A stretch of 31,463 bases of DNA from positions 1 to 31,463 of IMG/VR virus record IMGVR_UViG_3300008517_000030. One strand, given 5' to 3'. The number at the start of each line of letters is the position of its first letter. Positions within the stretch are counted from its first letter, which is position 1. Made by a program: the position numbers and the translations under genes. The DNA is from a virus. Below the pieces are notes generated by a model that had not been told where the DNA came from, did no database searches, and saw only the letters and a program-made list of their open reading frames with translations. This document shows, piece after piece, positions 3,610 through 31,463 of the stretch.

Positions 3610-3626
3610 TTGTCAACTGAGTAACA

Positions 3627-3671
3627 ACAGTGTTATGGGCTGCAGTATCATACTGCAGTCTGTGCCACTGT
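3627..3671 (+). ncRNA. Long hairpin in the 3' region of the capsid operon
   Basis: The 119-nt gap 3610-3728 contains a near-continuous helix. ACAGTG (3627-3632) pairs with CACTGT (3666-3671), and CTGCAGTA (3640-3647) pairs with TACTGCAG (3651-3658) around a TCA loop. Between the two stems, bases 3634-3639 pair with 3659-3664, mostly through G-U pairs. Those G-U pairs work only in + strand RNA, which suggests an RNA-level function such as processing, attenuation or 3'-end protection. No U-tract follows, so it is not a standard intrinsic terminator. Confidence 0.5.
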
Positions 3672-3693
3672 AATTTGGTTTGAATAAATAGAC

Positions 3694-3710
3694 TGTTGCA
3701 TAATGCAACA
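3694..3710 (+). repeat. Palindromic element copy 1
   Basis: TGTTGCATAATGCAACA, a perfect 8+1+8 palindrome. It ends 18 nt before the ATG of the adaptor gene and just upstream of its GTGAGGA ribosome site. The right flank is CCCTG. One of eight copies in the window. Confidence 0.85.
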
Positions 3711-3728
3711 CCCTGAAAGTGAGGAACT

Positions 3729-18528: not shown

Positions 18529-20979
18529 TTAGGTTGTTGCATAATGCAACACTCTATATATTTCCTTTATTTTATGAGCTGTATCTTGGATGTTTTCACT
18601 AACCTCAAACTCTCTCATATTCTTCTTCCCCCATCTTAGTCCCATCTTTGCACCAACAGGAATAGTAAACGTTGTTTGCTTCCAACGTATAGGTTGTTCT
18701 AGGGACCTCTTCAACTTCAATAAACAGTCTGCATGATACTCAAGACCAAGACTAATTGGAATCTGAAATAGCACTTCATCATGTACTTGACATAACAAGT
18801 CCAAGCCATAAAAGTCTTTCTGGTTATAGTACAATGGGTCTAACCCACGACTGTTGATTATGTCAGATACAGTACTCTGTGGATTAAAAGCGACAGCGTC
18901 AGTAACCAAGTCATCCCCCCACCTGTCTAGGAAATAAAACACTCTACCAAGACAATTCACTAGCTTCCTACTCTTTTGCAGGTCTGCCTCAACCCAGTTG
19001 TGATACCTTATGACTCCTGGATAGAACATAAAGTAGGAGTCCTTCAGTGCTTTTCCTACTCTTTCTGGCAGTCCAGAGGTCAACGCAAACTTCTTATATC
19101 CCCATCTATAATTAAATGCGTGATTTGTTTTCTTACCCATCTTTCTTTCTGACCAGTCCTCTTCTCCAAAAGGATAAGAACCCTCTTCATCTGATACCTC
19201 CTCTGGAGGCTTGTTTAGTATCAGACCAGCAGTCTTTCTATGTATATCCTCCTTATTTTCAAAGGCCTCTATCATATTTGGTTCTGGGGATATGTATGCA
19301 ACTATCTTATTCTCCGCCTGCTCTAAGTCCAGGCTATATATTATACAGTCTTCATCTGCCATGAAGAACTGCCGGACGTACTCAGGCTGATTCTGTAAAT
19401 CCATACCTGTATCAAATATAGTTTTACTACTACTAAACCTTCCGTACTTTGAGCCTATAGGATTGAAGTTGCTTCTAATTCTATCATCTTCTTCCAGTTT
19501 GACTTCTAAGTAAGTACCTCTTAACTTCACTTGCTTCCTTATCTTTAGAATAAGGTTAGCCTCTGGCACTCCCCTCCTTGCTAGTCTCTTCATAGCGTTT
19601 ACGTCTGTAGTTATTTTTCCTCTGGTTGTATACGGCTTATATCCTTTCTTTATATAAAAATAGTTCATAAGCTGTTGAGGACTATTAGGGTTTATCTCAA
19701 ACCCACACATACTCCAGAGTTCTTCCTTCAAGACTCCTATCTTTTCCTCTGCTACAGCTGAAGCCCCTCTCAATCCTTCCACATCTATTTTGATTCCTCT
19801 ATTCTGCATATAAACGGCGGGCTCTACCATCCTCACTTGCCTTTTGTAAGTTTCAGTATTACCTAATTCATCAAGGTCTGACATAATCTTTGGGAATGCT
19901 TCGTGAGTAACACAGCAGTCCTTCCCGTTGTAGATGGAGAATGATTCTTCCGTGCCTCCTATCTTATTCCATTTCTTTCCCTCATCTTTGTAATACGGCT
20001 CTCTAGTAAACCAGGATGCTATCCAGTCTAACCCTTTAGGAAGGTCAGGATATAACAATCCTTGAGCAATCATAGTGTCATCTACATTATGTGTTCTAAT
20101 ATTATACTTCCAGAGTAAAAAAGAGCAGTCAAAGACTATATTCTGTCCTCTCTTCACTATTCTCTCATCCTCAAGGAGGACAGCAACAGCCCTCCAGATC
20201 TCCAACTCCTCCTCAGGAAGGAATAAATCATTACCACCCCTTGAGAATGCAATACTAATAGCCTCATCGTCTGCCCAGGCTACACCCATTCTTGTCAGCT
20301 CTTCCCCTAACACTTCAATATCTATTGTTAGAACACTCTTAGTTTTACAGTGTGCTAAACACTCCATAGTTTCTATAAACGTAGAATCTATGAGGATGTG
20401 TCTATTGGGCAGATTGATAGAAGGACTGTTACTCTCTTCCCTAATCCTCTTCAAATCCCTAGTTATAGGATATATGTTGAGGAAGTTTCCTCCTGGCATT
20501 GCTCCTCTTACAGTTTGTCTTTCCCTAACAGAACCCGGATGGAGAATAGGAATGGTCTTTCTACCATCTAATCCTTCAAGGATAGACCCTCTCAGTTTAG
20601 TTATCTCTGCTCTTCCAGTTAGAGCAAAGCAAGCTAGCTTCCCCACAGGTACTATTACATTGGCTTCCATCTCCTTAAGTTCTGCCTTTAAACTGTTCTC
20701 ATACTCAACATACTTGGCAGTCCTTGGGTAGCCCTTTCTGCCAAAGTCGATGAAACTAGTGTAACTGTTGTGGGGAAGTAGCTCTTTAATAACGTTGGTT
20801 ATATAACAGTGCTGACGTACTATCCCAGCACTCCTCAACCTTGAGTCAAACTCCTGACCTACGGGACCTACGAAAGGTCTGCCTAGCCTCACCTCCTCCT
20901 TTCCAGGAGCCTCACCTACAAAGCAGATTTTACACTGCTTAGGTCCTTCACCTTTTACTATTGTTATCTTAGAGTTCAT
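18529..20979 (-). CDS. polA: Uracil-DNA-glycosylase-like domain fused to family A DNA polymerase
   Basis: An 816-residue fusion. Residues 16-180 resemble a family 4/5 uracil-DNA glycosylase, with GEAPGKEE at 22-29, GRPFVGPVG at 33-41 and HPG at 148-150. Residues 215-375 are a 3'-5' exonuclease with motifs D220-x-E222, D284 (QNIVFDCSFL) and Y350-x3-D354. The polymerase follows: KYGRFSSS at 511-518, motif A around D551 (SLDLEQAENKIVAY), motif B around R612 to Y624 (RKMGKKTNHAFNY) and motif C HDE at 733-735. Motif B lacks the standard NFG; a His may occupy the Phe762-equivalent place, depending on alignment. The start has no Shine-Dalgarno sequence and overlaps a 38-residue ORF by 11 nt, implying coupling. 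The last codons overlap palindrome copy 4. A 218-codon antisense frame is a shadow. Confidence 0.9.
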   Translation of the reverse strand: MNSKITIVKGEGPKQCKICFVGEAPGKEEVRLGRPFVGPVGQEFDSRLRSAGIVRQHCYITNVIKELLPHNSYTSFIDFGRKGYPRTAKYVEYENSLKAELKEMEANVIVPVGKLACFALTGRAEITKLRGSILEGLDGRKTIPILHPGSVRERQTVRGAMPGGNFLNIYPITRDLKRIREESNSPSINLPNRHILIDSTFIETMECLAHCKTKSVLTIDIEVLGEELTRMGVAWADDEAISIAFSRGGNDLFLPEEELEIWRAVAVLLEDERIVKRGQNIVFDCSFLLWKYNIRTHNVDDTMIAQGLLYPDLPKGLDWIASWFTREPYYKDEGKKWNKIGGTEESFSIYNGKDCCVTHEAFPKIMSDLDELGNTETYKRQVRMVEPAVYMQNRGIKIDVEGLRGASAVAEEKIGVLKEELWSMCGFEINPNSPQQLMNYFYIKKGYKPYTTRGKITTDVNAMKRLARRGVPEANLILKIRKQVKLRGTYLEVKLEEDDRIRSNFNPIGSKYGRFSSSKTIFDTGMDLQNQPEYVRQFFMADEDCIIYSLDLEQAENKIVAYISPEPNMIEAFENKEDIHRKTAGLILNKPPEEVSDEEGSYPFGEEDWSERKMGKKTNHAFNYRWGYKKFALTSGLPERVGKALKDSYFMFYPGVIRYHNWVEADLQKSRKLVNCLGRVFYFLDRWGDDLVTDAVAFNPQSTVSDIINSRGLDPLYYNQKDFYGLDLLCQVHDEVLFQIPISLGLEYHADCLLKLKRSLEQPIRWKQTTFTIPVGAKMGLRWGKKNMREFEVSENIQDTAHKIKEIYRVLHYATT
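18535..18551. repeat. Palindromic element copy 4
   Basis: TGTTGCATAATGCAACA, perfect. It overlaps the last codons of polA, where the - strand encodes RVLHYATT, and ends 24 nt before the start of the 31-residue membrane ORF. The right flank on the + strand is CTCTATATAT. Confidence 0.85.
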
Positions 20980-23518: not shown

Positions 23519-23541
23519 TATTTCCTCTCCAATTTAATGAT

Positions 23542-23602
23542 AGCAGAAGAGGAGAGAGGTAATCAACTTCGGTATAATTAATATTACCTCTCTCATTCTG
23601 CT
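23542..23602 (-). ncRNA. Long intergenic hairpin
   Basis: AGCAGAA (23542-23548) pairs with TTCTGCT (23596-23602), and GAGAGAGGTAAT (23552-23563) pairs with ATTACCTCTCTC (23583-23594). Only a GAG/A bulge breaks the 19-bp helix; the loop is 19 nt. It fills the gap between the ssDNA-binding-like gene and the next gene on the - strand. No U-tract follows, so intrinsic termination is unlikely. RNA processing, such as RNase III cleavage, or transcript stabilisation are options. The strand is assigned from the gene direction. Confidence 0.6.
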
Positions 23603-23615
23603 CAGTGTAACAGTA

Positions 23616-27720: not shown

Positions 27721-27885
27721 TTATTTATCTCCATTTCTCTCCCTCACTTTTCTACTCTTCCTATACTCTTTCTTATCTGGGAGGTTGTTCTTATGCTTAT
27801 GCCAGTGCTCAAAACAGTAACCTTGATTAAATACTCTCCTCTCACATCCTTCTTCTAAGCACCTCAGAACTTTATTTAAAGGCAT
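27721..27885 (-). CDS. 54-residue zinc-finger-like protein
   Basis: ATG at 27885 has AGAGG six bases upstream and the frame stops at TAA 27721-27723. RCLEEGCERRVFNQGYCFEH gives Cys-x4-Cys-x9-Cys-x2-His, a zinc-binding pattern seen in many small phage proteins and in HNH-associated fingers. A basic tail follows (HKHKNNLPDKKEYRKSRK). No HNH catalytic triad follows, so this is a finger without nuclease. It is the first gene after the terminator at 27933-27968. Confidence 0.65.
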   Translation of the reverse strand: MPLNKVLRCLEEGCERRVFNQGYCFEHWHKHKNNLPDKKEYRKSRKVRERNGDK

Positions 27886-27932
27886 AATAACCTCTATTAA
27901 TTATGTGTGAGAATGTACTTGTTAAACTAAGC

Positions 27933-27968
27933 AAAAAAGAGGACTATCACTTTGCTCTGTGATAGTCC
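27933..27968 (-). terminator. Intrinsic terminator
   Basis: On the - strand: perfect 10-bp stem GGACTATCAC/GTGATAGTCC, loop AGAGCAAA, then TCTTTTTTG. It lies 22 nt after the stop of the 138-residue gene and separates it from the zinc-finger ORF and nuclease downstream. This is the clearest terminator in the window. Confidence 0.9.
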
Positions 27969-27990
27969 CCTAATTCTGGGTAGCTGAATG

Positions 27991-28407
27991 CTACGCCTTT
28001 TTCAAGCCTGCAGCCTCGATAATTGCATTGACCTTTGCACGCTTCTCTTCCTCAGTCATAGTGCCTGAAGCGAACTGAGCCTTCAGCGCTGCTATCGGGT
28101 CAGAAACCCTGTGCATCGTAACGCCTGGCTTCCAAGGAGCTAAACGAACTCGGATTGCCGCCTCATCTTCACCTCTGTCAAGTCCTGAACGTATATTCCC
28201 TTGAAGGGAAACTATAGAAGCTGCTACGAAAGCACTGTGAACTGGAGCTTCTCCGAAGAGTTCAACTGACTCTTGGAGGCTAGCTCCAAAATTGTACTCC
28301 ATTGAGGCAGTAAGCACCCTCTGTTTCCCAGTCTTCTCGTCAATGACCTTTTCTTTGGTAGCAGGGTCAACCACTGGCTTTCTGGCTGTTACTAGTGTTG
28401 TAGCCAT
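27991..28407 (-). CDS. Conserved-looking phage protein, probably highly expressed
   Basis: A 138-residue protein with GAGAGGAG before ATG. It opens MATTLVTARKPVVDPATKEK, then MEYNFGASLQESVELFGE, VHSAFVAASIVSLQGNIR, and APWKPGVTMHRVSDPIAALK. The YNFGASLQESVELFGE region is one I associate with an uncharacterised phage protein family; no enzymatic motif. Its DNA is richer in GC-type codons (GCC, CGG, GCG) than neighbouring genes. It is the best-isolated gene of the arm: a structured leader and palindrome copy 6 lie upstream and a strong terminator lies downstream. That arrangement suggests a monocistronic, abundant product. Confidence 0.6.
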   Translation of the reverse strand: MATTLVTARKPVVDPATKEKVIDEKTGKQRVLTASMEYNFGASLQESVELFGEAPVHSAFVAASIVSLQGNIRSGLDRGEDEAAIRVRLAPWKPGVTMHRVSDPIAALKAQFASGTMTEEEKRAKVNAIIEAAGLKKA

Positions 28408-28452
28408 AACGGTCTCCTCTCTTAGTTTGTCCCACTAAATATGTATATAGAG

Positions 28453-28469
28453 TGTTGCATAATGCAACA
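28453..28469 (-). repeat. Palindromic element copy 6
   Basis: TGTTGCATAATGCAACA, perfect, extending to GTGTTGCATAATGCAACAC (28452-28470). It lies 45 nt upstream of the ATG at 28407. The CTCTATAT flank is on the - strand side here, the opposite orientation to the other copies. Confidence 0.85.
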
Positions 28470-28476
28470 CAGTAAT

Positions 28477-28559
28477 TGAGAGGCCGAAGACAGAGAACTT
28501 CAGACCTGCACTTTTAGTACAGTGGAGGTTCTTCGTCAACGGTGGGGGAACGCCTCTCA
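28477..28559 (-). ncRNA. Structured leader RNA, domain A
   Basis: Three helices stack in one long hairpin: TGAGAGGC (28477-28484) with GCCTCTCA (28552-28559), CGAAGA (28485-28490) with TCTTCG (28530-28535), and ACCTGCAC (28504-28511) with GTGGAGGT (28522-28529), which has one mismatch. Two single-sided bulges of 13 and 16 nt remain (28491-28503 and 28536-28551). It lies in the 5' region of the 138-residue gene, before palindrome copy 6. No ORF fits. I do not recognise a riboswitch class. Confidence 0.55.
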
Positions 28560-28569
28560 TATATGTTTA

Positions 28570-28648
28570 GAGACACTCAACTGAGTTTTGTTTGAAAGGG
28601 TGAAAATCAAGAGAAAATCCCCTTTATGTCCAACTAGCTGAGTGCCTC
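28570..28648 (-). ncRNA. Structured leader RNA, domain B
   Basis: A 10-bp stem pairs GAGACACTCA (28570-28579) with TGAGTGCCTC (28639-28648). The single mismatch is A-C on the + strand but a G-U pair in the - strand RNA, so the - strand is favoured. An inner stem pairs AAAGGG (28595-28600) with CCCTTT (28620-28625). It lies just upstream of domain A and after the stop of the 152-residue gene. Confidence 0.5.
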
Positions 28649-28663
28649 ATGAATTAGTCTACT

Positions 28664-29122
28664 TCACATTTTAGGCTTCTTTCCTAGCTCTTCCTTAACT
28701 GTGTCAAGAGTCAACTTCCTTTCTTCATCAACTTCCCTAGCAACTTTCCTAGCAACATCTTTCATAACTTTATCGGCAGAAGCCCCTTTTAAAGTCCTGA
28801 CTCTTGGCAGGTCTATATTGAAATCTGCTTTGAGGGTTTCCCCTTGAAGTTGTTTTATTAAAGCTCTCTTATTTCTCCCACCTCTATCTACCTCAATACC
28901 ACTTTCCCAAAGAAAGTTAATAGCCTCTTCTGCTGATGTGAAGGATTCGGTCATCTCGTTATCTATTAGAATTTGGGCAAAATGCTCTACTATAGTACCA
29001 AGCAGGTCGGACTTTGACCTTATTGGAATGCTGTTCTTGAGATAATAGGAAAGAATTGTAGCAAGTGGAATTATGTCGACTCTTGCTTCTATGCAACTTG
29101 CTCTCACAATCTCCTCTGACAC
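28664..29122 (-). CDS. Hypothetical protein, start uncertain
   Basis: The frame opens at GTG 29122, giving 152 residues, but an AGAGGAG site lies inside it and a second GTG at 29107 follows only three bases after. A perfect extended -10 (TGTTATAAT) at 29123-29131 would start the transcript near 29116, favouring the later start. The protein is helical (EARVDIIPLATILSYYLKNS, SDLLGTIVEHFAQILIDNEM) with basic, helical C-terminal segments (KVMKDVARKVAREVDEERKL). No family is recognised. Followed by the structured leader region. Confidence 0.5.
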   Translation of the reverse strand: MSEEIVRASCIEARVDIIPLATILSYYLKNSIPIRSKSDLLGTIVEHFAQILIDNEMTESFTSAEEAINFLWESGIEVDRGGRNKRALIKQLQGETLKADFNIDLPRVRTLKGASADKVMKDVARKVAREVDEERKLTLDTVKEELGKKPKM

Positions 29123-29131
29123 ATTATAACA
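29123..29131 (-). promoter_or_regulatory. Extended -10 promoter candidate
   Basis: On the - strand TGTTATAAT, a perfect TGnTATAAT extended -10. The -35 region at 17-nt spacing (AAATCT) is poor, which extended -10 promoters tolerate. It would transcribe the 152-residue gene and beyond. Confidence 0.5.
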
Positions 29132-29140
29132 GTAATGAAA

Positions 29141-29209
29141 TAACTAGATTTGATATACTCTCCCCTTACTGAGTAACTAGTCCTTGATATGGTTTTTAAC
29201 TGTTGATAT
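29141..29209 (-). repeat. Three direct repeats of TAACTnnTTGATAT type
   Basis: On the + strand, TAACTAGATTTGATAT (29141-29156), TAACTAGTCCTTGATAT (29174-29190) and TAACTGTTGATAT (29197-29209). All lie in the 158-nt AT-rich non-coding stretch 29123-29280, between two candidate promoter sites. Operator or replication-origin iterons are possible. Confidence 0.55.
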
Positions 29210-29213
29210 ACAC

Positions 29214-29242
29214 AAGGTAATAAATGCACATCCATTTGTCAA
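29214..29242 (-). promoter_or_regulatory. Promoter candidate with consensus -35
   Basis: On the - strand, TTGACA (29242-29237), a 17-nt spacer and TACCTT (29219-29214). The -35 is perfect; the -10 keeps only T, A and the final T. It reads toward the direct repeats. Confidence 0.4.
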
Positions 29243-29280
29243 CAATTTACTTTGCACAAATAAAACCAGTTTGAATTAGT

Positions 29281-29505
29281 TTACACATTCGGGATATTTC
29301 CGGACTTTGGTTCCCAGTTATCTTCTTTAGTGTCGTTCCTCTCATTGGAGAAAGTTATCTCATTTCCGGTTGCTTGACTGAAGATGTGAAAGTTGACTTC
29401 GTGAGCATTCAGTATTTGTCTGAGACTTTCCTCTATACCTTCTACTGCCGCTGATGTTATTGGGTTTTTTATAGTTATTAATAAGACCGCTTGATAGTGT
29501 GTCAT
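29281..29505 (-). CDS. Small alpha/beta hypothetical protein
   Basis: A 74-residue protein with AAGGAGGAATTAG before ATG, a strong ribosome site. It opens with a strand (HYQAVLLITIKNPITSAAVE), a helix (GIEESLRQILNAHEVNFHIF) and a polar C-terminus. The beta-alpha-beta feel resembles a small ferredoxin-like fold, but there are no diagnostic residues. Palindrome copy 7 lies 27 nt upstream of the start. The non-coding regulatory stretch lies after its stop. Confidence 0.55.
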   Translation of the reverse strand: MTHYQAVLLITIKNPITSAAVEGIEESLRQILNAHEVNFHIFSQATGNEITFSNERNDTKEDNWEPKSGNIPNV

Positions 29506-31387: not shown

Positions 31388-31463
31388 CTGTCTCTTATAC
31401 ACATCTCCGAGCCCACGAGACGGACTCCTATCTCGTATGCCGTCTTCTGCTTGAAAAAAAAAA
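31388..31463 (+). other. Nextera/Illumina adapter read-through, not biological
   Basis: CTGTCTCTTATACACATCT (31388-31406) is the Tn5 mosaic end used in Nextera kits. CCGAGCCCACGAGAC follows, then the eight-base index GGACTCCT (31422-31429, matching Nextera N705), then ATCTCGTATGCCGTCTTC and the rest of the P7 tail to 31453, then ten A. This should be trimmed. Confidence 0.98.

Follow-up and report, generated by a model that had tools for sequence, protein, structure and literature searches.

What does a strongly folded stretch of 173 nt do between two small genes of an uncultured phage? The question arises in IMG/VR virus record IMGVR_UViG_3300008517_000030, a stretch of 31463 bases that was analysed as a whole and is called the window here. 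The record comes from a tailed phage that encodes an SU10-type major capsid protein, a Sak4-like protein, a ParB/methyltransferase fusion and, at 18529-20979 on the minus strand, a PolA-type DNA polymerase with an N-terminal uracil-DNA-glycosylase domain. Relatives align to this PolA across nearly its entire length, and the glycosylase/polymerase fusion therefore appears to be common in the phage group. At the contig end, positions 31388-31463 hold a sequencing adapter (CTGTCTCTTATACACATCTCCGAGCCCACGAGAC, an index, ATCTCGTATGCCGTCTTCTGCTTG and poly-A); the record's right end is thus artificial, and the genome breaks off near copy 8 of a palindrome. This dyad, GTGTTGCATNATGCAACAC, occurs eight times in the window (at 3693, 8073, 14485, 18534, 24030, 28452, 29532 and 31357); an SD is only a few bases away from some copies, and several are flanked by AT-rich letters resembling TATA. 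The copies may be start-site operators or 5′ hairpins of the mRNA.

The minus strand of 28476-28648 (173 nt) folds into two tandem hairpin domains with a minimum free energy of -66.8 kcal/mol, against -39.8 +/- 3.8 kcal/mol for 200 dinucleotide shuffles, none of which (0/200) reached so low a value (z -7.0). The plus strand of the same segment is far weaker, at -54.7 kcal/mol (z -2.5). In a GC-corrected scan of 15,648 segments of 173 nt on both strands, 28476-28648, with ends picked to suit the structure, ranked first at -3.66 sd and the next segment reached -3.33; next in rank were those at 27825 (-), 14417 (+), 1361 (+), 23425 (+) and 3525 (+). Other intercistronic gaps of this phage, at 3610-3728 (+) and 23519-23615 (-), are strongly folded too, and the segment is exceptional in its folding, yet not isolated in scale. 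Both of these gaps hold irregular hairpins without a U-run, and the one at 3610-3728 (+) lies immediately 5′ of a palindrome copy and a gene. Symmetry of this kind could belong to the DNA itself, as a replication origin or as protein-binding dyads that merely resemble an RNA structure: the segment adjoins one of the eight copies of the 19-bp dyad, and both strands fold to some extent. The asymmetry between the strands (4 versus 2 G-U pairs; -66.8 versus -54.7 kcal/mol) favours RNA.

Read along the RNA, domain B (28648-28570) comes first, with a 17-bp outer helix that contains two G-U pairs and one bulge, a 6/7-nt internal loop and an inner stem. Domain A (28559-28477) consists of an 8-bp outer helix, a 10-nt one-sided bulge (GUUCCCCCAC) and an irregular upper stem, in which helices of 2, 4, 5, 2 and 7 bp are stacked above the bulge. 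When the full leader of the window is folded, both domains form (P 0.91-1.0) and the SD stays largely open. The coordinates and the two tandem domains of the original prediction are thus borne out by the fold, and palindrome copy 6, the 138-aa ORF and the strong terminator that it named are all present. Two details need amending. The bulge that it quoted, GGTGGGGGAAC, is written as the plus strand, and the letters on the RNA (minus) strand are GUUCCCCCACC; and the segment, described as having no ORF, is overlapped by a 41-codon ORF (28560-28435, minus strand) that spans domain A and the palindrome, though it lacks an SD. No SD was seen in front of its ATG, and we rejected it as a gene; it is probably not translated.

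Downstream of domain A, palindrome copy 6 (GUGUUGCAUUAUGCAACAC, 28452-28470, minus strand) forms an 8-bp hairpin with a 3-nt loop and occupies the place that a short 5′ UTR hairpin near the SD takes in relatives. It is followed by the SD region of the gene g138 (GAGAGGAGACC, 28411-28421, minus strand; the SD letters are also given as GAGAGGAG), which is complementary to CCUCUC of domain A. The gene itself (27991-28407, minus strand) encodes a conserved phage protein of 138 aa and ends at an intrinsic terminator with a 13-bp stem and a T run (27971-27938, minus strand), the best of the neighbourhood. On the other side of the structure lies g152 (28664-29122, minus strand), an ORF of 152 aa; it matched nothing in Pfam, PHROG or NCBIfam, and its one relative, in L010, is weak (30% over 86 aa). 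The structure matched no Rfam family at gathering thresholds, nor any at E<=5 for 28400-28720, and ARAGORN found neither tRNA nor tmRNA.

How is this region transcribed? The sole TTGACA-N17-TAnnnT of the window, where 0.38 is expected, is the putative promoter TTGACA-N17-TACCTT found by motif scan at 29242-29214 (minus strand), upstream of g152 and 835 nt upstream of g138. Since the only such motif precedes g152 on the same strand, the probable arrangement is a two-gene unit with g138 as its second cistron, and the description of g138 as an isolated gene becomes doubtful. As judged from the sequence, a g152-g138 unit with the structure between its cistrons would be the simplest layout. No terminator-like site (GC stem plus U run) was found on the minus strand of 28477-28648; with no U-run after it and a position between two same-strand genes, the structure is not an intrinsic terminator.

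Homologous loci allow this layout to be compared. Searches with PolA yielded 25 related viral loci and then, with a profile, 80, the best of which is 49% identical to the window PolA; the Desulfofustis phage OP947158 is an additional relative. A close search with g138, g152 and the exonuclease gave no relatives, and a PolA scan of genome contigs returned just two distant loci. An HMM of g138 collected 54 homologous ORFs, including ten seed homologues. The protein has no Pfam, PHROG or NCBIfam family match, and its AlphaFold model (pLDDT 87) matched no fold and shows no known RNA-binding fold. Upstream of g138, TTGACA-16/18-TAnnnT occurs within 1 kb in more than half of the homologues, against a background of 0.027 per kb per strand for the motif (spacer 16-18) across the relatives' loci, and this promoter type is enriched there.

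The position of that promoter varies among the relatives. In many of them it lies about 60-140 nt from the g138 start, and a small hairpin and then an A/C-rich linker stand between it and the SD; about half of those with a located promoter have such a short leader with the small hairpin alone, so a large structure is not needed for g138 generally. Leaders with distant promoters tend to fold more strongly (Mann-Whitney p 0.011), but with the clade described below counted once and the window omitted the p-value is 0.07, and the link between a long leader and structure is just a tendency. Several loci show features of their own upstream of g138. L048, L049 and L054 have in common an element that lies between the TTGACA promoter and the SD and consists of a GAGGG...CCCC hairpin and, after it, AGGGTNNCGACCTAC. 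Just 5′ of g138, L061 (near 2700-2760) and L110 (near 3050) carry tRNA-like letters (GGTTCGA-TCC) that resemble a T-arm; a tRNA was suspected, and ARAGORN calls none.

The short leaders bear on the proposal that the structure is part of the upstream unit, either a 3′ UTR structure or an element resembling a terminator, and that it ends the g152 message or stabilises it; g138 would then be transcribed from a promoter of its own, located within domain A or beyond it. A weak promoter-like sequence, TTGACG-17-TAAAAG, does lie within the inner strand of domain A (28539-28511, minus strand), at 103 nt, a distance that matches the relatives' 60-140 nt, and a promoter overlapping the palindrome is another candidate; moreover, in L059 a terminator-like hairpin separates the g138 promoter from the gene upstream of it. 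The sequence within domain A, however, scores low and has a poor -10 (TAAAAG), and we set it aside as weak; a better promoter stands upstream of g152, and no U-run follows A or B. We consider this explanation unlikely.

Is the fold itself shared by relatives? We built a covariance model (R1) from the window structure; being drawn from a single sequence, it could miss strongly diverged homologues. Scanned against the complete records of 21 relatives, the loci of 16 relatives, five loci without filters and 68 further loci together with the window, it returned no copy beyond that of the window, and the sequence of domain A or B itself found no homologue in the relatives searched. As a result there is no covariation and no comparative support for the exact fold, which appears so far to be unique to the window phage among those relatives. 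The pairings had been expected to recur in homologous loci; these particular pairings are absent from them, and no homologue of the bulges described as conserved-looking was found. Unfiltered runs of R1 and of R2, the clade model introduced below, on selected relatives gave noise alone. A pattern scan of viral contigs with GGCGTTCCCCCACCGT produced five chance matches, none matching the structure, and a scan for the palindrome led to a single short contig, L040, whose only detectable likeness to the window is the palindrome itself.

A different picture emerges in a sister clade of about 10 records (L068/L117, L069/L111, L075/L120, L077/L113, L101/L112, L115, L116, L119, L122 and L123), in which g138 is directly preceded by a strongly structured RNA. 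In L111-L123 this leader RNA, about 200-40 nt upstream of g138, displays strong covariation. Its outer helix, P1, has 11 pairs that are 100% paired across six distinct sequences, and 7 of the 11 are changed on both sides, against 2.9 in shuffles. Over the whole fold, both partners have changed in 36 of 53 pairs, where shuffles give 18.1 and slid partners no more than 12, a count taken on an alignment that was fitted to the model and is biased towards it. A covariance model (R2) built from one sub-clade, with L117, L119, L120 and L122, recovered the held-out leaders of the other (L112, L111, L113, L115 and L116), with E-values between 5e-5 and 1e-3 in 934 kb. Downstream of P1 stands the palindromic hairpin UAACA..UGUUA, which is invariant, and then a conserved SD region. 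Most members share one arrangement: a promoter, TTGACA-17-TACATT, that is conserved and 409-500 nt away, a small ORF, the structured RNA, the palindromic hairpin, the SD and g138. The clade RNA has no Rfam match. On this comparative sequence evidence, the sister clade carries a structured RNA at g138 that is proven by covariation, new and absent from Rfam.

The clade RNA also weighs on two further explanations. Its pairs covary via G-U intermediates, which argues against a DNA-level element. It is placed in cis to g138 in every member found, which argues against an independent small non-coding RNA, whether cleaved out of the g138 unit or transcribed beside it, a possibility that the original prediction had set beside that of a leader. 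Such an RNA would fit the compact and stable fold of the window; the structure, however, has no flanking promoter or terminator of its own and is not conserved as an RNA gene. We judge a separate RNA to be quite improbable and a DNA element marginally more so, both being less likely than a cis-acting element, and of the two original models the clade, as an analogue, favours the leader or intercistronic element of the g138 transcript.

Homology between the window structure and the clade RNA is possible. The two have the same order of promoter, small gene, structure, palindromic hairpin, SD and g138, and the clade leader resembles the window in an outer helix with a purine-rich 5′ strand and a pyrimidine-rich 3′ strand; UGAGGCA and UGUCUCU are common to domain B and P1, in pairing register. 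They differ in that a single P1 encloses arms in the clade, in place of two tandem hairpins, and that the clade hairpin follows directly after P1. Run unfiltered, R2 found its best match within 27800-29300 in domain B (28649-28553, minus strand), at 8.2 bits and E 0.08 in 1.5 kb, while chance matches reach 14.9 bits in 92 kb of unrelated loci. R3 matched neither domain A nor domain B.

The complementarity between domain A and the SD suggests yet another function. As a regulatory leader, the structure would bind a ligand or a protein, possibly g138 itself, at A or B, and the opening of A would free CCUCUC to pair with the SD letters GAGAGG, shutting off g138 translation. CCUCUC (28484-28479) together with GGUCU (near 28506-28502) is able to pair with GAGAGGAGACC; in a transcript starting at 28507 the SD is almost fully paired, whereas in the full transcript it is mostly open, and the 3′ strand of B and the 5′ strand of A are able to pair as well. 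When the upstream strand was shuffled, however, 25% of the shuffles paired with the SD equally well or better (25.5% in the duplex test), so composition alone explains the pairing, and an SD-sequestering switch, striking by eye, does not rise above shuffles. There is also no Rfam riboswitch match, and g138 is without a known RNA-binding fold. The odds are well against such a leader. The original interpretation therefore stands in part: thermodynamics and the clade RNA support a structured cis RNA before g138, and the absence of an Rfam match at E<=5, of a conserved bulge and of SD pairing beyond that of shuffles leaves its ligand-binding reading unsupported.

What we observe is the minus-strand fold potential, the gene order, the terminator and, in the clade, a covariation-proven RNA at the same place. 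Weighing these, we tentatively favour, with a probability of about 0.4, a cis-acting intercistronic element of the g152-g138 mRNA, most likely one of processing or stability, with palindrome 6 as a 5′ hairpin. A single minus-strand early transcript would start from the promoter at 29242-29214 and comprise g152, domain B, domain A, the palindromic hairpin, the SD, g138 and the terminator, reading through the structure on its way. The long irregular helices would then be a place of processing, of the RNase III kind known from T7 early mRNA, or would hold back exonucleases, or both. Cleavage or protection would leave a separate g138 message, its 5′ end guarded by the palindromic hairpin and its SD open, and the fold of the window and that of the clade would presumably do the same job.

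To our knowledge, the mRNAs of uncultured phages have seldom been described as carrying structured control elements. Homologues of g138 permit a comparison between short leaders (promoter at about 60-140 nt plus one hairpin) and long, strongly folded ones, and for the clade a covariance model that Rfam lacks is already at hand, with 36 pairs changed on both sides. The choice between a processing site and a switch becomes testable by ordinary reporter work and 5′-end mapping. A broader proposal, which we consider unlikely, would count B and A as a diverged representative of a novel class of leader RNAs on the phage g138 family, a class proven by covariation in the clade. Through processing or binding, it would control a gene common to many uncultured phages with the fused uracil-glycosylase/PolA DNA polymerase.

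Among known systems, the cyanophage-associated motifs wcaG, psbNH and PhotoRC RNA are candidate structured RNAs near phage genes that came from comparative genomics (PMC2864571); they belong to other genes and other phages, and the window RNA is without an Rfam match. Riboswitches have a 5′ position and bulged helices in common with the window element, which is unlike them in having no family match, no conserved ligand pocket and no significant expression platform. The T7 early mRNA has five RNase III processing sites (PMC4858673), and like the window element these are intercistronic irregular hairpins with internal loops that part adjacent messages of a phage early transcript (PMC4858673). 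The T7 sites consist of one hairpin each, in contrast to the two large tandem domains here, where cleavage is a prediction, and a relation in sequence between them is not expected. As at the T7 sites, an intercistronic irregular hairpin of at least about 20 bp lies on the transcribed strand of the window, between genes that are probably co-transcribed.
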